Of a stretch of DNA of 64,000 bases, positions 11,330-64,000 are shown in pieces (within the stretch, counting starts at the first letter, position 1; each line of letters opens with the position of its first letter). Below the pieces are notes generated by a model. It saw only the letters and a program-made list of their open reading frames with translations, searched no databases and was not told the origin of the DNA. The stretch comes from Pseudomonadota bacterium (GTDB taxonomy: Bacteria; Pseudomonadota; Gammaproteobacteria; Burkholderiales; Chitinibacteraceae). The position numbers were made by a program, and so were the translations under genes. Where the stretch lies: positions 33,825-97,824 of the forward strand of contig JAPLQI010000035.1 of assembly GCA_026399755.1 (NCBI GenBank). The letters run 5' to 3'.

Positions 11330-11390
11330 TGTTTTTCTCCGTGAAACTCCGTGTTCTCCGCGCCCTCCGTGTTTCAAGATTTGGGTTGTG
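11330..11390. repeat. ctccgtgttctccgcgccctccgtg dispersed repeat (NHRGHREH-type)
   Basis: Near-identical to 41080-41140: ttttctccgtgaaactccgtgttctccgcgccctccgtg. Confidence 0.8.
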
Positions 11391-23520: not shown

Positions 23521-23523
23521 ACA

Positions 23524-23583
23524 GCATCGCTTACGGGCTGCACCCGCCCTAGGAATAACATTTCGCTTAAGTTGTTAGGGTTG
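23524..23583. repeat. Right-end fragment of the MITE-like element
   Basis: gggctgcacccgccctaggaataacatttcgcttaagttgttagggttg. Confidence 0.6.
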
Positions 23584-25745: not shown

Positions 25746-26144
25746 CAATCCTAGCAACTTAGCTATTTATCATAAAAAAACAGCAAAAAAATGTATTGCC
25801 CATGCTCTCCGCACGGGGCTTTAGAGTCCCCTTGAAGCACGCCGAAACGAGGAACAAGCGGGGCGGGGTTTCGGCGAGGACTGTTCGAGCGAAGCGAGTT
25901 CCGCAGCCGCCGCCTCGATTGTCCGCAGTGAGGGGATTTCGTGCTGGACGGGGCGGCCTTCTTTGGCTTCGTTTCTTGGCCGTTCAAGAAAGGAAGGCCC
26001 CTGCGGTGGCTACCGCTCTAAAATTAACGTGCCGAAGGCACTAAAGTCTTGTTGTATTTTGGTTAGCACACATGGAGTGAAGCCCGTGTATTTCGCGGTT
26101 TGCACCCGCCCTACGAAAAACTTTGCCTTAAGTTGATAGGATTG
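25746..26144. mobile_element. MITE-like terminal repeats (CAATCCTAGCAACTTAGC ... GCCTTAAGTTGATAGGATTG) enclosing another repeat
   Basis: End sequences match the complete elements at 31534-31685 and 63334-63489; no target duplication seen. Confidence 0.55.
25800..26045. repeat. GC-rich dispersed repeat of about 245 bp, copy A
   Basis: Inverted copy at 46321-46560; shares ggaacaagcggg..ggtttcggcgaggactgt..gagcgaagcgagttccgcagccgcc. Confidence 0.85.
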
Positions 26145-31518: not shown

Positions 31519-31533
31519 TGGGTATATCCACTT

Positions 31534-31685
31534 CAATCCTATCAACTTAAGCCATGCGCCATGGCATGCCACACAATGACAAGCATTGAATCATCTTAGG
31601 GCGGGTGCAAGCCGCGTATTTTTCAGCATTGCTCGCGGGTTGCACCCGCCCTACGTAAATCATTTCGCTTAAATTGATAGGATTG
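31534..31685. mobile_element. Complete MITE-like element, copy 1
   Basis: TIR CAATCCTATCAACTTAAGC ... GCTTAAATTGATAGGATTG; flanked by exact 10-bp direct repeat ATATCCACTT (31524-31533 and 31686-31695). Confidence 0.85.
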
Positions 31686-31694
31686 ATATCCACT

Positions 31695-34262
31695 TTAATA
31701 CGCATGAATCGCCTGTAATAGCTCGGCCTCTAAAGCGCGGGAGGCATGCTGATCTTTGAGTAATTCCCCGCTAATTAAGAAATTATCTTCCGCCCGCTCG
31801 CCCAGCGTCATAATTTTTGCCGATTGAATCTCAATTCTATTCTTCGCCAATACTCTGGCAATGGTCGAGAGCAAGCCGGTTCTATCTCCTGCTGCAATCG
31901 ATAAAACATGGTATTTGCCACGCTCATCCGCACGTATCATCACATGCGGCTGAATGGGGAAATGTTTTAATTGCCGTGATATGCGCGTTTTATGCACCGA
32001 GGCCAGCGGCAGCCCTTTTTCTAATTGCTGACTGAGTTCAAATTCGATATAGCCAATTAAATCACGGTAATTGTCGACGCGATTATCGGGGATATAAATA
32101 TAGAAACTATCTAAGGCATAGCCATTTTGCGTGGTATGAATATGTGCATCAAAAATGGTATAGCCAGCGCGCTCAAAAAAACTGCAAATTTGCGCGAATA
32201 AATCATTCTTATCCACGCTATACACCATCACTTGCAAGCCTTCGCCAGATTCTGAAAGCCGTGCACGCACAATAGGTTTGAGCGTGTTGACGCGGGAAAA
32301 CAGCATGCGGGTGTGCCAAGCAATTTCTTTGGCGTCGTGGCGTAAGAAATACACAGTATCGAGCACTTTCCAGAAATCTTCATGCGCTTCTTGGCGTAAG
32401 CCATGCAGGCGAATTAAGCGCAGCGCTTCGTCTTGACGCTCCGCTAGCCATGATCGATTACTACTGGTGTTGCTAAATAGGTGCTGAGTGGCTTTGAATA
32501 AATCTTCAAGCAGCTTGGCTTTCCATGCATTCCACACCTTGGGGCTGGTGCCGCGAATATCGGCCACCGTCAGCAAATAAATGGCAGTGAGCTTGCGCTG
32601 GTCACCCACCCAAGTGGCAAAGGCTTGAATGGTTTCGGGGTCGTACACGTCTTGTTTTTGCGCCACGGAAGACATGGTCAGGTGATGCTCAACCAGCCAA
32701 GTAATTAACTGGGCGTCATCCGTTGTTAGCGGCATGCTGGCACACCATTTAGCCGCGATCTCTTTGCCTAATAAGGAATGGTCGCCACCACGCCCCTTGC
32801 CAATATCATGAAATAGCGCAGCCAGATATAAAACCTCGGGCCGATCGAATTCCGCCAATAGTCGAGAGCACATCGGGTATTCATGGGTAAAGGCATTCAC
32901 CGCAAAGCGCCGCACATTGCGCAACACCATTAATGTGTGTTCATCCACGGTATAAACATGAAATAAATCATGCTGCATACGGCCAACAATTTGCCCAAAT
33001 TCTGGAATAAAACGCCCTAATACGCCGTATTGATTCATGCGGCGCAATACACGTGTTAAGCCGCGTGGCTCGCGAAAAATATCAATAAAGCACTGCTGAT
33101 TAACCGGATTGCTACGGAAATCATCATCAATGCTGGATCTGGCATGCCAAAGCGCCCTGAGTGTGGCGGGGCTGATATCCCGAGCATCTCTTATGCGCTC
33201 TAATTGCCAGAATAATTCCAGAATGGTTGAAGGCTGGCGTTCAAATACATCGGGGGCTGTGATTTCAATCGAGGAGCCACGTAATTGAAAGAATTCATTA
33301 ATCGGGCGAATCTCAATCCCAACCTGCGAAAAAATACGCGCTTTCAGGGCTTCTAATAATAAAGGGGTGAGTTGGCTAATAATTCGGGCAGAGCGGTAAT
33401 AGGTGGCCATGAGGGCTTCGCTGGCCCGCAAGCGAATAGAGCCTTTCTCGCTGTCTTCAAATTTAAAATCGCTGGCGAGCGTATGCTGGTAATCAAATAA
33501 AATGCGATCTTCACGGCGTTTGGCCCGCCAGTGCAATTGAATCCGATAGGCGCGCAATACCCGCTCGGCATTTTCTAATTTAATGATTTCTTCATCGGTC
33601 AGCATTTTAAGCTGCGCCAAAGCATGCCAATCGCGGCCCAAGCCTTGGCTAGCGGCAATCCAGCCAATTAAATGCAAATCGCGCAGGCCACCTGGAGCCT
33701 CTTTGATATTAGGCTCAAGATTATAAGTGGCGTTTTGAAAGCGCCCATAGCGAGCCTGCTGCTCTAATAATTTGGCTTCAAAGAATTCCTTGGTATCGAT
33801 ATAGCGATGCACAGTGTCATAAAATTCTTTAAAGCGCTCCGGGTCCCCCACCAAAAGCCGCGCTTCTAAAATAGCCGTTTGCACGGTGATATCTTTTTCA
33901 GCCTCGTGCATACAGTCCGCCGTGGTGCGCACCGAATGCCCCACTTCCAAACCAATATCCCACAGCTCACCCACAAAGACTTCGAGTTTTTCTAACAGCG
34001 CAGGCGAGGGCAGGTCGGGCAATAAAATCAGTAAATCCACATCAGAATAGGGAAACAACTCGCCCCGCCCATAGCCCCCAACCGCCACCAGCAGCACCTC
34101 ATCAATAAACTGATGCCTGCCCCACAGCTCGCTTAAGGTGCGATCAGTCAGCTGCGTCAGTTCCGCCAAGATCGGCAAGGCCTCGCTTGGCGTATCAAAG
34201 CGTTGGTGTAAGGCGGCTTTATCAGCCGCATAAGAAGCTCGGATGGCACTAACAGGACGCAT
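31695..34262 (-). CDS. glnD: Bifunctional uridylyltransferase/uridylyl-removing enzyme (PII)
   Basis: GGYGRGELFPYSDVDLLIL nucleotidyltransferase, HDIGKGRGGDHS HD domain, two ACT domains. Confidence 0.95.
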   Translation of the reverse strand: MRPVSAIRASYAADKAALHQRFDTPSEALPILAELTQLTDRTLSELWGRHQFIDEVLLVAVGGYGRGELFPYSDVDLLILLPDLPSPALLEKLEVFVGELWDIGLEVGHSVRTTADCMHEAEKDITVQTAILEARLLVGDPERFKEFYDTVHRYIDTKEFFEAKLLEQQARYGRFQNATYNLEPNIKEAPGGLRDLHLIGWIAASQGLGRDWHALAQLKMLTDEEIIKLENAERVLRAYRIQLHWRAKRREDRILFDYQHTLASDFKFEDSEKGSIRLRASEALMATYYRSARIISQLTPLLLEALKARIFSQVGIEIRPINEFFQLRGSSIEITAPDVFERQPSTILELFWQLERIRDARDISPATLRALWHARSSIDDDFRSNPVNQQCFIDIFREPRGLTRVLRRMNQYGVLGRFIPEFGQIVGRMQHDLFHVYTVDEHTLMVLRNVRRFAVNAFTHEYPMCSRLLAEFDRPEVLYLAALFHDIGKGRGGDHSLLGKEIAAKWCASMPLTTDDAQLITWLVEHHLTMSSVAQKQDVYDPETIQAFATWVGDQRKLTAIYLLTVADIRGTSPKVWNAWKAKLLEDLFKATQHLFSNTSSNRSWLAERQDEALRLIRLHGLRQEAHEDFWKVLDTVYFLRHDAKEIAWHTRMLFSRVNTLKPIVRARLSESGEGLQVMVYSVDKNDLFAQICSFFERAGYTIFDAHIHTTQNGYALDSFYIYIPDNRVDNYRDLIGYIEFELSQQLEKGLPLASVHKTRISRQLKHFPIQPHVMIRADERGKYHVLSIAAGDRTGLLSTIARVLAKNRIEIQSAKIMTLGERAEDNFLISGELLKDQHASRALEAELLQAIHAY

Positions 34263-41079: not shown

Positions 41080-41140
41080 GTTTTTCTCCGTGAAACTCCG
41101 TGTTCTCCGCGCCCTCCGTGGTTCAAGGTTTGGGTTGTAA
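41080..41140. repeat. ctccgtgttctccgcgccctccgtgg dispersed repeat
   Basis: Near-identical to 11330-11390. Confidence 0.8.
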
Positions 41141-42252: not shown

Positions 42253-42740
42253 TGCGTGTCCTTGCCATTGTTGGTGCCATCAAACTCTGCTCGCAAAGCA
42301 GCCAGCTGGGCCGGATCGACCTCGCTGGGGGCGGCCTTTCGGTGGCGAATTTGCCGCAGCAACAGAAACAAACCAATTAAGAGCAGTAGCGGTGGTAACA
42401 GCCATAAAAGCAGCGTTCTGGCTTTGAATGGCGGGCGGTAAGTGACAAAGTCACCGTAGCGATCGGTCAGGTGGCTGATGATTTGCGGGTTACTGTCGCC
42501 AGCAGCGATGCGCTCTCGCACTTCACGGCGCAGGTCCTCGGCCAGCGGCGCACGCGAGCTGGCTAGGCTTTCATTTTGGCAAACAAGACAGCGCAGCTCG
42601 GCGGATAGCTCGACCAAACGCGCATTCGCTGCCACATCGCTGGCGGCTGGAGCGGCCACCTTGGCCGCTGCGGGCAGCATCAGTGCAAGCCATAATCCAC
42701 ATATAGCCAGAGTGCTAAAACCCAAACCTTGAATCACGGA
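42249..42740 (-). CDS. ccmH: Cytochrome c-type biogenesis protein CcmH (haem lyase subunit)
   Basis: ELRCLVCQNESLASSRAPLAEDLRREVRERIAAGDSNPQIISHLTDRYGDFV; ORF opens to 42884 but its N-terminus is repeat-derived, so the exact start is uncertain. Confidence 0.88.
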   Translation of the reverse strand, partial: SVIQGLGFSTLAICGLWLALMLPAAAKVAAPAASDVAANARLVELSAELRCLVCQNESLASSRAPLAEDLRREVRERIAAGDSNPQIISHLTDRYGDFVTYRPPFKARTLLLWLLPPLLLLIGLFLLLRQIRHRKAAPSEVDPAQLAALRAEFDGTNNGKDTQ

Positions 42741-42840
42741 GGAAAAGGAGGACACAGAGAGCCACGGAGAAAAAAGCCAAGGTTTTCTCTGTGTAACTCC
42801 GTGTTCTCTGTGTCCTCTGTGGTTCAGGGCCTGGGTTTTA
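42725..42840. repeat. ctctgtgttctctgtgtcctctgtggttc inverted repeat
   Basis: acggaggaaaaggaggacacagagagccacggagaaaa...ttttctctgtgtaactccgtgttctctgtgtcctctgtggttc. Confidence 0.85.
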
Positions 42841-46320: not shown

Positions 46321-46560
46321 TTTAGTGCCTTCGGCACGTTGATTTTGGAGCGGTCGCCACCGCTGGGGCCTTCCTTTCTTGAACGGCCAAGAAACGAAGC
46401 CAAGCCACAAACTCAAAGAACGAAACCCCTCGCTGCGGACAATCGAGCGGCGGCTGCGGAACTCGCTTCGCTCAGACAGTCCTCGCCGAAACCCCGCCCG
46501 CTTGTTCCTCGCTTCGGCGTGCTTCAAGGGGACTTAAAAAGCCCCGTGCCGAGCGCGGGG
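46321..46560. repeat. GC-rich dispersed repeat of about 245 bp, copy B (inverted)
   Basis: Reverse-complement relative of 25800-26045. Confidence 0.85.
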
Positions 46561-46661
46561 TTGTTATGTTTTTTCGTTGTTTGCTACTAAAAAACAAATT
46601 GCTTAGCGTGTATGGCGGTAACCCGTGTATTTGTCAGCATCGCTCGCGGGTTTCACCCGCC

Positions 46662-51055: not shown

Positions 51056-51219
51056 ATTTTGTGAGCTAGAGTGTATTAGCTTGGCTTCTCTTTCATGGAT
51101 TAGCCAGCAGAGTTACCACAGGCGTCAGGAATTTATGAGTGAGTGGAGTCCAGAGACCACTTAAAAAAACGGGGCGAACCCGAAAAGCCTTACGAGTAGG
51201 ATGCTACAAGGAGATTTTT

Positions 51220-61397: not shown

Positions 61398-61418
61398 CAG
61401 TTAAGCAGGGCCAATTCT

Positions 61419-61530
61419 TGAACCACAGAGAGCACAGAGAGCACAGAGTTTCACAGAGGACATGATAGATTGGATGGTTTTCTCTGTGGCACTCTGTGTG
61501 CTCGTTCTCCTCTGTGGTTCAAGGTTTAGT
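61419..61530. repeat. cacagagaa-type inverted repeat
   Basis: cttgaaccacagagagcacagagagcacagagtttcacagagga...tctctgtggcactctgtgtgctcgttctcctctgtggttcaagg. Confidence 0.85.
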
Positions 61531-61598
61531 ACTCTATTCCCTTAGCCAATGGGACGAAGTTCGCGTTTTTCAAAGGCTGTGTATCATTAGTTAAGTAT

Positions 61599-62070: not shown

Positions 62071-63291
62071 ATGATGATTAAATTATTAATGTCTTCCCGC
62101 TGGTATCTGTGGTTTAGCCTCGGCTTGCTTATTACCAATATTGGCTCTGGGTTAACTGCGGTGGCGGTGTTTGGTGCTTTGTCTAAAACAGCTGCAGCGC
62201 CGTCTGATTTTGCTTTGACTTTCTCAGTGTCGATTGTGCCGACTTTATTTAGCGCTGAAATTGGCAAATATTTAGGGCGGTGGTGCAAGCCTTTTTCTAT
62301 ATTGATCGCCGTAGAAATAGGTGGGGTCTTGTCTTTATTGCTGCCTTTTTATGCCTTGGCTTCGGGTAATTTACTGATGCTGAGCATGGCACTGGCTTTG
62401 CCGAGTCTTTTTTCTGGCTTGGCGGTTTCGGCTTATCACACGATTAATAAGCGGGGTTTTGGCGAGGCAGACTATTTGCATATTGCCACCATAGAAACCA
62501 TTTCATTTTCTGCTATTACCATTGTTGGTACGGGAATCGGCGGGGTGATTTATCCTTTGCTCAGTAGCGCTCTCTATTTTGCCTTGGATGCACTGTCTTA
62601 TCTTTTAGCGATGGCGTGTTTGTTTTATTCGCGCGCTTTGATTGAGGATGCTGCGCTGAATCGTATCGATCAAGAGATGGTGATCAAAATACGGTTTTTC
62701 TCTTTGAATCTTGAGAAAAAAACCATTTTAATGATTATGCCGCTACTCACTTTAATCTCTGCGCCCGCCATGGCTTTGTTGCCGGTTAAGGGTTTAGAAT
62801 TTAATGATTTTAAAGTATTAGGGCTGGTGATTAATCCGGTATTGATTCTGCTCTTTGCCCGCTGCATTGGCCAATTGATTGGGCCATTGTTAACGAGCCA
62901 GAAGATGATAGATCGCTTGTTTTATTCGGCCTGGGCCAAATCCATATTGGGTCTGGGATTTTTCCTCATGTATTTATTGGCGTTTTATAGCCAGTCATTA
63001 GTCTTAGTGATTTTGGCGGTGATTCTGGCGCACATTAGTTCGAATGTTTTATTTGCCTTGTCGTATTCCACCATGCTGAGTCGTTTTGGCGAGGATGAAA
63101 TCGGCGCGGCGTCGGTGTTCTCTTACCAAAGCACCACGCTAATCTTGGCGTTGTTCTCGCTGCCGCCCGGCTTTTATGCCGATCAATATGGCCTAGTTGC
63201 TGCCATGCTGTTGTTTTCCTTGCCTGCAGTTTTGGTGATGATGGTGGTGTTTGTTAAGCTTAAACCGAGGCCGAAATTCAGCGCGATCTAA
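62071..63291 (+). CDS. Major facilitator superfamily-type membrane transporter
   Basis: About 12 hydrophobic segments over ~405 aa; family assignment by topology only. Confidence 0.7.
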   Translation: MMIKLLMSSRWYLWFSLGLLITNIGSGLTAVAVFGALSKTAAAPSDFALTFSVSIVPTLFSAEIGKYLGRWCKPFSILIAVEIGGVLSLLLPFYALASGNLLMLSMALALPSLFSGLAVSAYHTINKRGFGEADYLHIATIETISFSAITIVGTGIGGVIYPLLSSALYFALDALSYLLAMACLFYSRALIEDAALNRIDQEMVIKIRFFSLNLEKKTILMIMPLLTLISAPAMALLPVKGLEFNDFKVLGLVINPVLILLFARCIGQLIGPLLTSQKMIDRLFYSAWAKSILGLGFFLMYLLAFYSQSLVLVILAVILAHISSNVLFALSYSTMLSRFGEDEIGAASVFSYQSTTLILALFSLPPGFYADQYGLVAAMLLFSLPAVLVMMVVFVKLKPRPKFSAI

Positions 63292-63333
63292 TGATATAAG
63301 CTGATTTTTCTGTTGTGGCGAGGGCCATTGCAG

Positions 63334-63489
63334 CAATCCTATCAACTTAGCCCTTCGTCATGATGCTAGTGGCCGCACAATGGCCAGCATTGCATCATCT
63401 TAGGATGGGTGCAATCCGCGTTCTGTTCAGTATTGCTTGCGGCGTGCACCCGCCCTACAAATATCATTGCGCTTAAGTTAATAGGATTG
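63334..63489. mobile_element. Complete MITE-like element, copy 2
   Basis: CAATCCTATCAACTTAGC ... GCTTAAGTTAATAGGATTG; flanks GCCATTGCAG / GCCATTGCTG (9/10 direct repeat). Confidence 0.82.
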
Positions 63490-63748
63490 GCCATTGCTGG
63501 CCTTCGCTATCAATATTGATGTTTTTATATTTTGGGCTAGGGGGCTTCTACTCTGGCTAGACATCTCGGCGTAAACCCAACATTGGGTTTTGTTGTAGTG
63601 TTTTTTTCTTATTTTAATCAATCACTAAGTGTAAACACTTACGCCGGTAGTATGTAAGTTTGTTAATAATCACAAGCTTTTGTAATCGTTGGGACGGGCT
63701 GTTAAATCATCGGGTAATCTGCGGCATTGATAAAATCGTGGAATACCC

Positions 63749-64000
63749 GTGCGCCCCGATCAGTTACTTGCTTCTTTTGCTGCTGCTTTTTCACAAGACC
63801 AACGATTAATCTCTTTGCAATTAGGTGATGGTGCAGCTTGGGGAGAGCAGCTCTTACCCCAGCGCGTAAGCGGTAGTGAGGGGATCAACCAAGCGTATCG
63901 CTACCAGATCGATTGCTTGTCGCCCGATGCAGCCTTAGAGCTTAAATCCTTGCTGGGCCTGCCGATTGTGCTATCGATTGCCGATGCGGGCGGGGCAGAA
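63749..64000 (+). CDS. VgrG/type VI secretion tip protein, N-terminal part (runs off window)
   Basis: Open GTG frame: VRPDQLLASFAAAFSQDQRLISLQLGDGAAWGEQLLPQRVSGSEGINQAYRYQIDCLSPDAALELKSLLGLPIVLSIADAGGAE; absent from the ORF track because it is open at the edge. Confidence 0.75.
   Translation, partial: MRPDQLLASFAAAFSQDQRLISLQLGDGAAWGEQLLPQRVSGSEGINQAYRYQIDCLSPDAALELKSLLGLPIVLSIADAGGAE

Follow-up and report, generated by a model that had tools for sequence, protein, structure and literature searches.

A 156-bp repeat of Iodobacter with the ends, 10-bp duplication and target preference of an IS4-family insertion sequence

The 156-bp element at positions 63334–63489 of the window, by which the whole 64,000-nucleotide stretch of DNA analysed is meant, is most probably (at roughly 93%) a MITE derived from an insertion sequence (IS) of the IS4 family, of its IS4/IS4Sa branch, in Iodobacter, with the IS transposase presumably acting in trans. 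The window belongs to an Iodobacter genome of 4.95 Mb in 145 contigs. The element has the features by which a MITE is recognised: it is short and non-coding, is bounded by terminal inverted repeats (TIRs), is flanked by a duplication, occurs in many copies and has its TIRs in common with an autonomous element. The MITE inserts as one unit with exactly 10 bp duplicated, and the full-length IS and the MITE have the same ends, the same duplication length and the same target preference. Because these three features are common to both, the MITE would be mobilised in trans by the IS transposase. The features referred to below are as follows, in window coordinates unless a locus is named.

63324–63333, forward strand: left target-site duplication GCCATTGCAG, one base changed, read from the sequence.
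63334–63352, forward strand: left TIR CAATCCTATCAACTTAGCC, the first 16 bases being those of both full-length IS ends.
63334–63489, forward strand: MITE of 156 bp, non-autonomous and IS4-type, recognised by its TIRs, its duplication and 77 similar places genome-wide.
63400–63459 (approximate), forward strand: degenerate REPIN core, two facing GTAG-headed palindromes, placed by alignments with other copies and with RAYT-flanking REPINs.
63471–63489, reverse strand: right TIR GCTTAAGTTAATAGGATTG, 18 of 19 bases being those of the IS left end.
63490–63499, forward strand: right target-site duplication GCCATTGCTG, read from the sequence.
31524–31695 with duplications, forward strand: sister MITE (copy A) of 152 bp at 31534–31685, with ATATCCACTT on both sides (10/10) and an empty site in G002.
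25746–26144, forward strand: TIR-bounded element of 399 bp with a different, longer interior and no clear duplication (6/10).
23522–23583, forward strand: partial copy with a REP palindrome and the right TIR only, belonging to families D8 and D10 of the window repeat comparison.
Loci L040:1360–1516, L305:4634–4788, L314:9141–9304 and L341:105–235: TIR frames with other palindromic cores.

Across 63324–63499 the sequence reads GCCATTGCAG, then CAATCCTATCAACTTAGC...GCTTAAGTTAATAGGATTG, then GCCATTGCTG, with TIRs of about 19 bp; the flanking copies are identical at 9 of 10 bases (GCCATTGCAG against GCCATTGCTG), as the sequence-only reading had described. Two random 10-mers would agree at 9 or more positions in about 3 of 100,000 cases (arithmetic with equal base frequencies). 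An MFS-like gene, whose Pfam match falls below the cut-off, ends at 63291. From 63749 runs an open reading frame that extends beyond the window end and whose first 84 residues weakly match Phage_GPD (phage baseplate-hub/VgrG domain), again below the cut-off; the earlier placement of the element next to vgrG is plausible. An Rfam scan of the window found no family on the MITE, the sole match in the window being a DUF805 RNA (RF03081) at 51138–51206 (76.5 bits). A promoter and terminator scan of 63250–63800 gave nothing at the scan thresholds, and a PDB profile search gave chance matches only.

The interiors of this MITE and of copy A are 80% identical, and the 16-bp TIR, allowing up to 2 mismatches, was counted 245 times in the genome, whereas a reversed control gave 2; the TIR-bounded structure is therefore not a product of chance. 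The interior of the 399-bp element recurs in inverted orientation at 46321–46582, where it is up to 95% identical. A separate dispersed repeat family, TTCTCCGTGAAACTCCGTGTTCTCCGCGCCCTCCGTGGTTCAAG, was seen in both orientations at 11331–11389, 41080–41138, 42716–42839 and 61417–61534, with 66–97% identity. A literature search, mostly beyond subscription journals, returned no paper on an Iodobacter MITE and none on REPIN-cored IS4 MITEs.

To compare flanks across many copies, TIRs were paired over about 1.6 Mb of fetched genome tiles (about 1.9 Mb were fetched in total, chosen partly for containing matches). A preferred duplication length of 10 bp was found: 18 of 39 short TIR-bounded elements (<400 bp) had 10-bp flanks agreeing at 80% or more, and 13 of 39 at 90% or more, whereas at lengths of 4–9 and 11–16 bp at most 2 of the 39 reached 80%. 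With shuffled right flanks, 2.1 and 0.9 of the 39 elements, respectively, would be expected at length 10, because many targets have a common motif. About half of the 39 elements have no clear duplication, a lack that age or recombination could explain. In G001, G003 and G007, too, some MITEs have flanks that agree at 9–10 of 10 positions. At the site orthologous to copy A, the sister species G002 lacks the element and carries ATATCCGCTT once, so that the filled and empty sites differ by 152 bp plus 10 bp, and the unit that inserted there was the whole TIR-bounded element. An exact empty site for the MITE at 63334–63489 was not found in other species, the orthologous flanks being too diverged; in G004, G006 and G007 a GGCC...GGCC stem persists at this site, with no MITE.

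These flanks, together with the G002 empty site and the IS end pairs described below, support a fixed 10-bp staggered cut, and thereby the defined integration mechanism that had been proposed from the two copies, as well as the view that these two were independent insertions. The earlier identification of the element as a MITE was likewise correct, and the outcome named beforehand as refuting that reading, many copies without a preferred duplication length, was not obtained. The premise that 10 bp is unusual among families that mobilise MITEs was wrong: the TIRs are those of an IS4-family element, and members of this family duplicate about one helix turn (10–13 bp in subgroup IS4, 8–10 in IS4Sa, 10 in ISH8 and 10–12 in IS231; PMC2266710). 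The 10-bp duplication is thus an IS4-family signature and gives no sign of a new integration mechanism.

The autonomous partner was recognised from its effect on the assembly. Many contigs stop about 110–140 bp inside a TIR, and the interiors reached there are of two recurring kinds, which is a sign of a long high-copy repeat; about 20–28 copies of a transposase-bearing IS with the TIRs of the MITE break the assembly of its own genome, where only the ends of the IS are present. The interiors, those of recently moved copies included, are unassembled there, so that no intact transposase was seen in this genome. One of the two interiors encodes a protein ending in LKLALNELCKAVIYFDPHAKKDRPKHPKPHDFTAYKSGV before the stop. 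When the flanks of left- and right-type contig ends were matched, 22 exact agreements were found at 10 bp and none at 5–9 or 11–14 bp. Twelve of the 22 involve a repeated target, GGTTTCACCC, and are ambiguous; the other 10 are one-to-one and 8 of those are non-REP, an example of a predicted pair being C101/C69 with GTAAAGCTGC. Same-side control pairs gave 10 and 6 exact matches at 10 bp, and because these stem from near-palindromic REP targets, weight was placed on the non-REP pairs.

The only complete IS found is in the sister species G001. It is 1280 bp long and has the same TIRs, a perfect GGATTACCGG on both sides and a 388-codon open frame. Its transposase matches DDE_Tnp_1 above the cut-off (E = 5e-9), and its best NCBIfam match is NF033592 IS4 (92.9 bits, E = 2e-26), below the cut-off of 115 in this internally deleted copy; that cut-off is a naming threshold and not a defining property. 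The copy carries the motif YHQRWRIEEAFKRLK, of the form Y(2)R(3)E(6)K, in which Y256, E263 and K270 are invariant and R259 is nearly so among 25 aligned proteins. The triad D(63–69)D(105–110)E is present in 24 relatives, within the D(60–110)D(100–150)E criterion. In the G001 protein (L073:454–1617) the second catalytic Asp is replaced by Glu with loss of a codon (DRGY to EGY), and the protein lacks about 26 residues before the first motif; because of this replacement and the deletion, the copy is probably inactive. The transposase has 170 relatives among GTDB species, mostly proteobacterial, and among 21 relatives, 12 combine exact 10-bp duplications with ends of the CAATCCTC, CAATGCT or CAATCCACC type; where 12-bp duplications were scored, the scoring frame begins one base inside the TIR. 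Comparison of the IS C-terminus with the plasmid collection gave no match. PF01609 matches on contigs C128, C102 and C49 were considered as the partner IS and set aside as other transposases that lack these ends. A second IS4-type element in the genome of the window, at C128:1–1673 (L061), has CAATGCTGTTCACTTAAT ends, a length of about 1473 bp and a 408-codon frame (PF01609, 59.7 bits).

The interior of most MITE copies contains an inverted pair of GTAG-headed palindromes (GTAGGGCGGGTGMAACCCGC), that is, a REPIN. The GTAG palindrome was counted 261 times in 1.62 Mb, against 4 in a shuffled control, and 103 REPINs were found in 1.92 Mb. An IS4-type TIR accompanies 42 of them, on one side or on both and usually about 32 or 63 bp away, with a chance rate of about 0.7% per side. 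Many copies have conserved spacers between TIR and REPIN, and the composite has therefore been amplified as a unit. At least two other palindromic cores occur in the same TIR frame (GTGTACAACGAC...GTCGTTGCGCACC and GTAGGGTGGGCGCG). A RAYT gene with REPINs on both flanks is present on contig C27 (REP_Tyr_transpos, 192.9 bits, cut-off 80). In the RAYT/REPIN cluster at C27:120030–121150 (L296), IS4-type TIRs and a full-IS end are inserted, and a second RAYT lies on contig C12 (L254:881–1444).

Target choice was examined at 139 classified distinct ends (18 left IS, 22 right IS and 99 other), in the sequence that flanks each of them on the outside. All three classes show the same preference, namely a G-rich start, T at position 4, A at 7, C at 9–10 and a run of C thereafter, with AGGGgGGnTtaAnCCcCCCT as the symmetrised target. 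Half of a REP palindrome adjoins 45 of 113 ends (about 40%), against a REP coverage of roughly 0.35% (about 340 REPs, each of 20 bp, in 1.92 Mb). Targets outside REPs likewise exceed random sites in dyad symmetry (6.46 vs 5.67 paired positions, resampling P = 0.001), and none of 2000 shuffles of these targets reached the observed symmetry; the effect outside REPs is modest. The joined flanks of the MITE at 63334–63489, GGCGAGGGCCATTGCTGGCCTTCGC, lie inside a strong hairpin of -23.9 kcal/mol (56-base stretch) 3' of the MFS-like gene, and the insertion split this hairpin within about 1 bp of its axis. Pairing in this hairpin suggests that the right copy of the duplication, with T, is the original one. 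That the interrupted hairpin is a terminator is only a suggestion, because it lacks the T-run that the terminator scan demands. Taken by sequence, the IS and the MITE appear to prefer DNA hairpins as landing sites.

Other explanations of these repeats were weighed against mobilisation by the IS. The REPIN itself could be the mobile unit, moved by the RAYT (HUH) transposase with the IS4-like TIRs as mere conserved flanks, and indeed the genome holds a RAYT flanked by the same palindromes, and 61 of the 103 REPINs have no TIR nearby. However, it is the whole TIR unit and not the REPIN that the 10-bp duplication and the empty site delimit, other cores sit in the same TIR frame, and for copy A this explanation is already contradicted by G002. 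Target duplications are not known from RAYT/IS200-type single-strand transposition. Movement of these units by RAYT is very unlikely. It is just as improbable that a transposase of another family, with TIRs that resemble those of the IS4 element, moves the MITE. The MITE and the IS are alike only over their first 16–20 bp and the genome encodes further transposases, but the start of the TIR, the duplication length and the target motif are identical at IS and MITE ends, and the remaining PF01609 transposases, on small contigs, are without these ends.

An immobile intergenic hairpin repeat, with flanks that match by chance or through a common motif, would account for the strong folding of the elements (z = -8.1 for copy A and -2.8 for copy B), and common REP targets do inflate flank matches, as in the same-side controls above. 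Non-REP flanks nevertheless agree at length 10 only and an empty site exists for copy A, which makes an immobile repeat scarcely credible.

For the preferred reading, a MITE moved by the IS4-family transposase, the following course is proposed. The IS transposase would act in trans on the MITE ends, which, by analogy with IS4-family DDE transposases, would be joined to the two target strands at points one helix turn, or 10 bp, from each other. Targets tend to be dyads of a G-tract and a C-tract, forming hairpins, among them REP palindromes and stems that resemble terminators, and would be cut near the dyad axis. The usual MITE core, a REPIN belonging to the resident RAYT system, is taken along as a passenger. 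We put forward only tentatively that the IS4-type transposase and the RAYT system of Iodobacter are interlocked, with the REPs that the RAYT system spreads serving the transposase as preferred landing sites, and with cores that can be exchanged in the MITEs, palindromes from several families and for the most part REPINs; were this so, each MITE insertion would add landing sites and each system would spread the other. A high-copy intergenic repeat family of Iodobacter is now tied to its likely mobilising IS, and it offers a natural case of DDE-type and HUH-type mobile elements that use common intergenic palindromes. Where an element lands in a terminator-like hairpin, as next to the vgrG-like gene, read-through into neighbouring genes may be altered.

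Among known systems, the IS resembles subgroups IS4 and IS4Sa in its CA/AAT-type ends, YREK motif, single-ORF DDE transposase and duplications of about 10 bp, and some members of these subgroups have, as here, a strong preference in the target arms (PMC2266710). Against the subgroup IS4 consensus (-AATR--------WTW; PMC2266710), AAT and TTA agree and the ends here, CAATC, have C rather than R at position 5; several relatives have CAATG. At 1280 bp, the internally deleted G001 copy is shorter than the 1400–1650 bp of subgroup IS4 and lies inside the IS4Sa range (PMC2266710). All IS4Sa features fit (ends CA------T, duplication of 8–10 bp, length of 1150–1750 bp), these being loose and overlapping with subgroup IS4. 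The REPIN core and the hairpin targeting are less ordinary; each either has known precedents or is a purely descriptive finding in this analysis. MIC231 and other non-autonomous elements of the IS4 family are likewise short, have IS4-family ends and no transposase, and their mobilisation in trans is presumed. The Iodobacter MITE differs in its IS4/IS4Sa-type ends and its REPIN core, MIC231 being a member of the IS231 subgroup of Bacillus. MIC231 is named in PMC2266710. ISRm22 of Sinorhizobium meliloti, also of the IS4 family, is inserted in REP palindromes near their symmetry axis, with all nine chromosomal copies in REPs and six-bp repeats reported (PMC1525189); in Iodobacter, by contrast, about 40% of the ends adjoin REPs and the duplication is 10 bp. 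The palindromes themselves resemble known REPINs and RAYTs with GTAG-tagged REPs in their inverted GTAG-headed pairs, their hundreds of copies and the RAYT gene that they flank (PMC3116915, PMC3733652). Unlike known REPINs, about 40% of those in Iodobacter are accompanied by an IS4-type TIR on at least one side, and the REPIN would move within the TIR unit.
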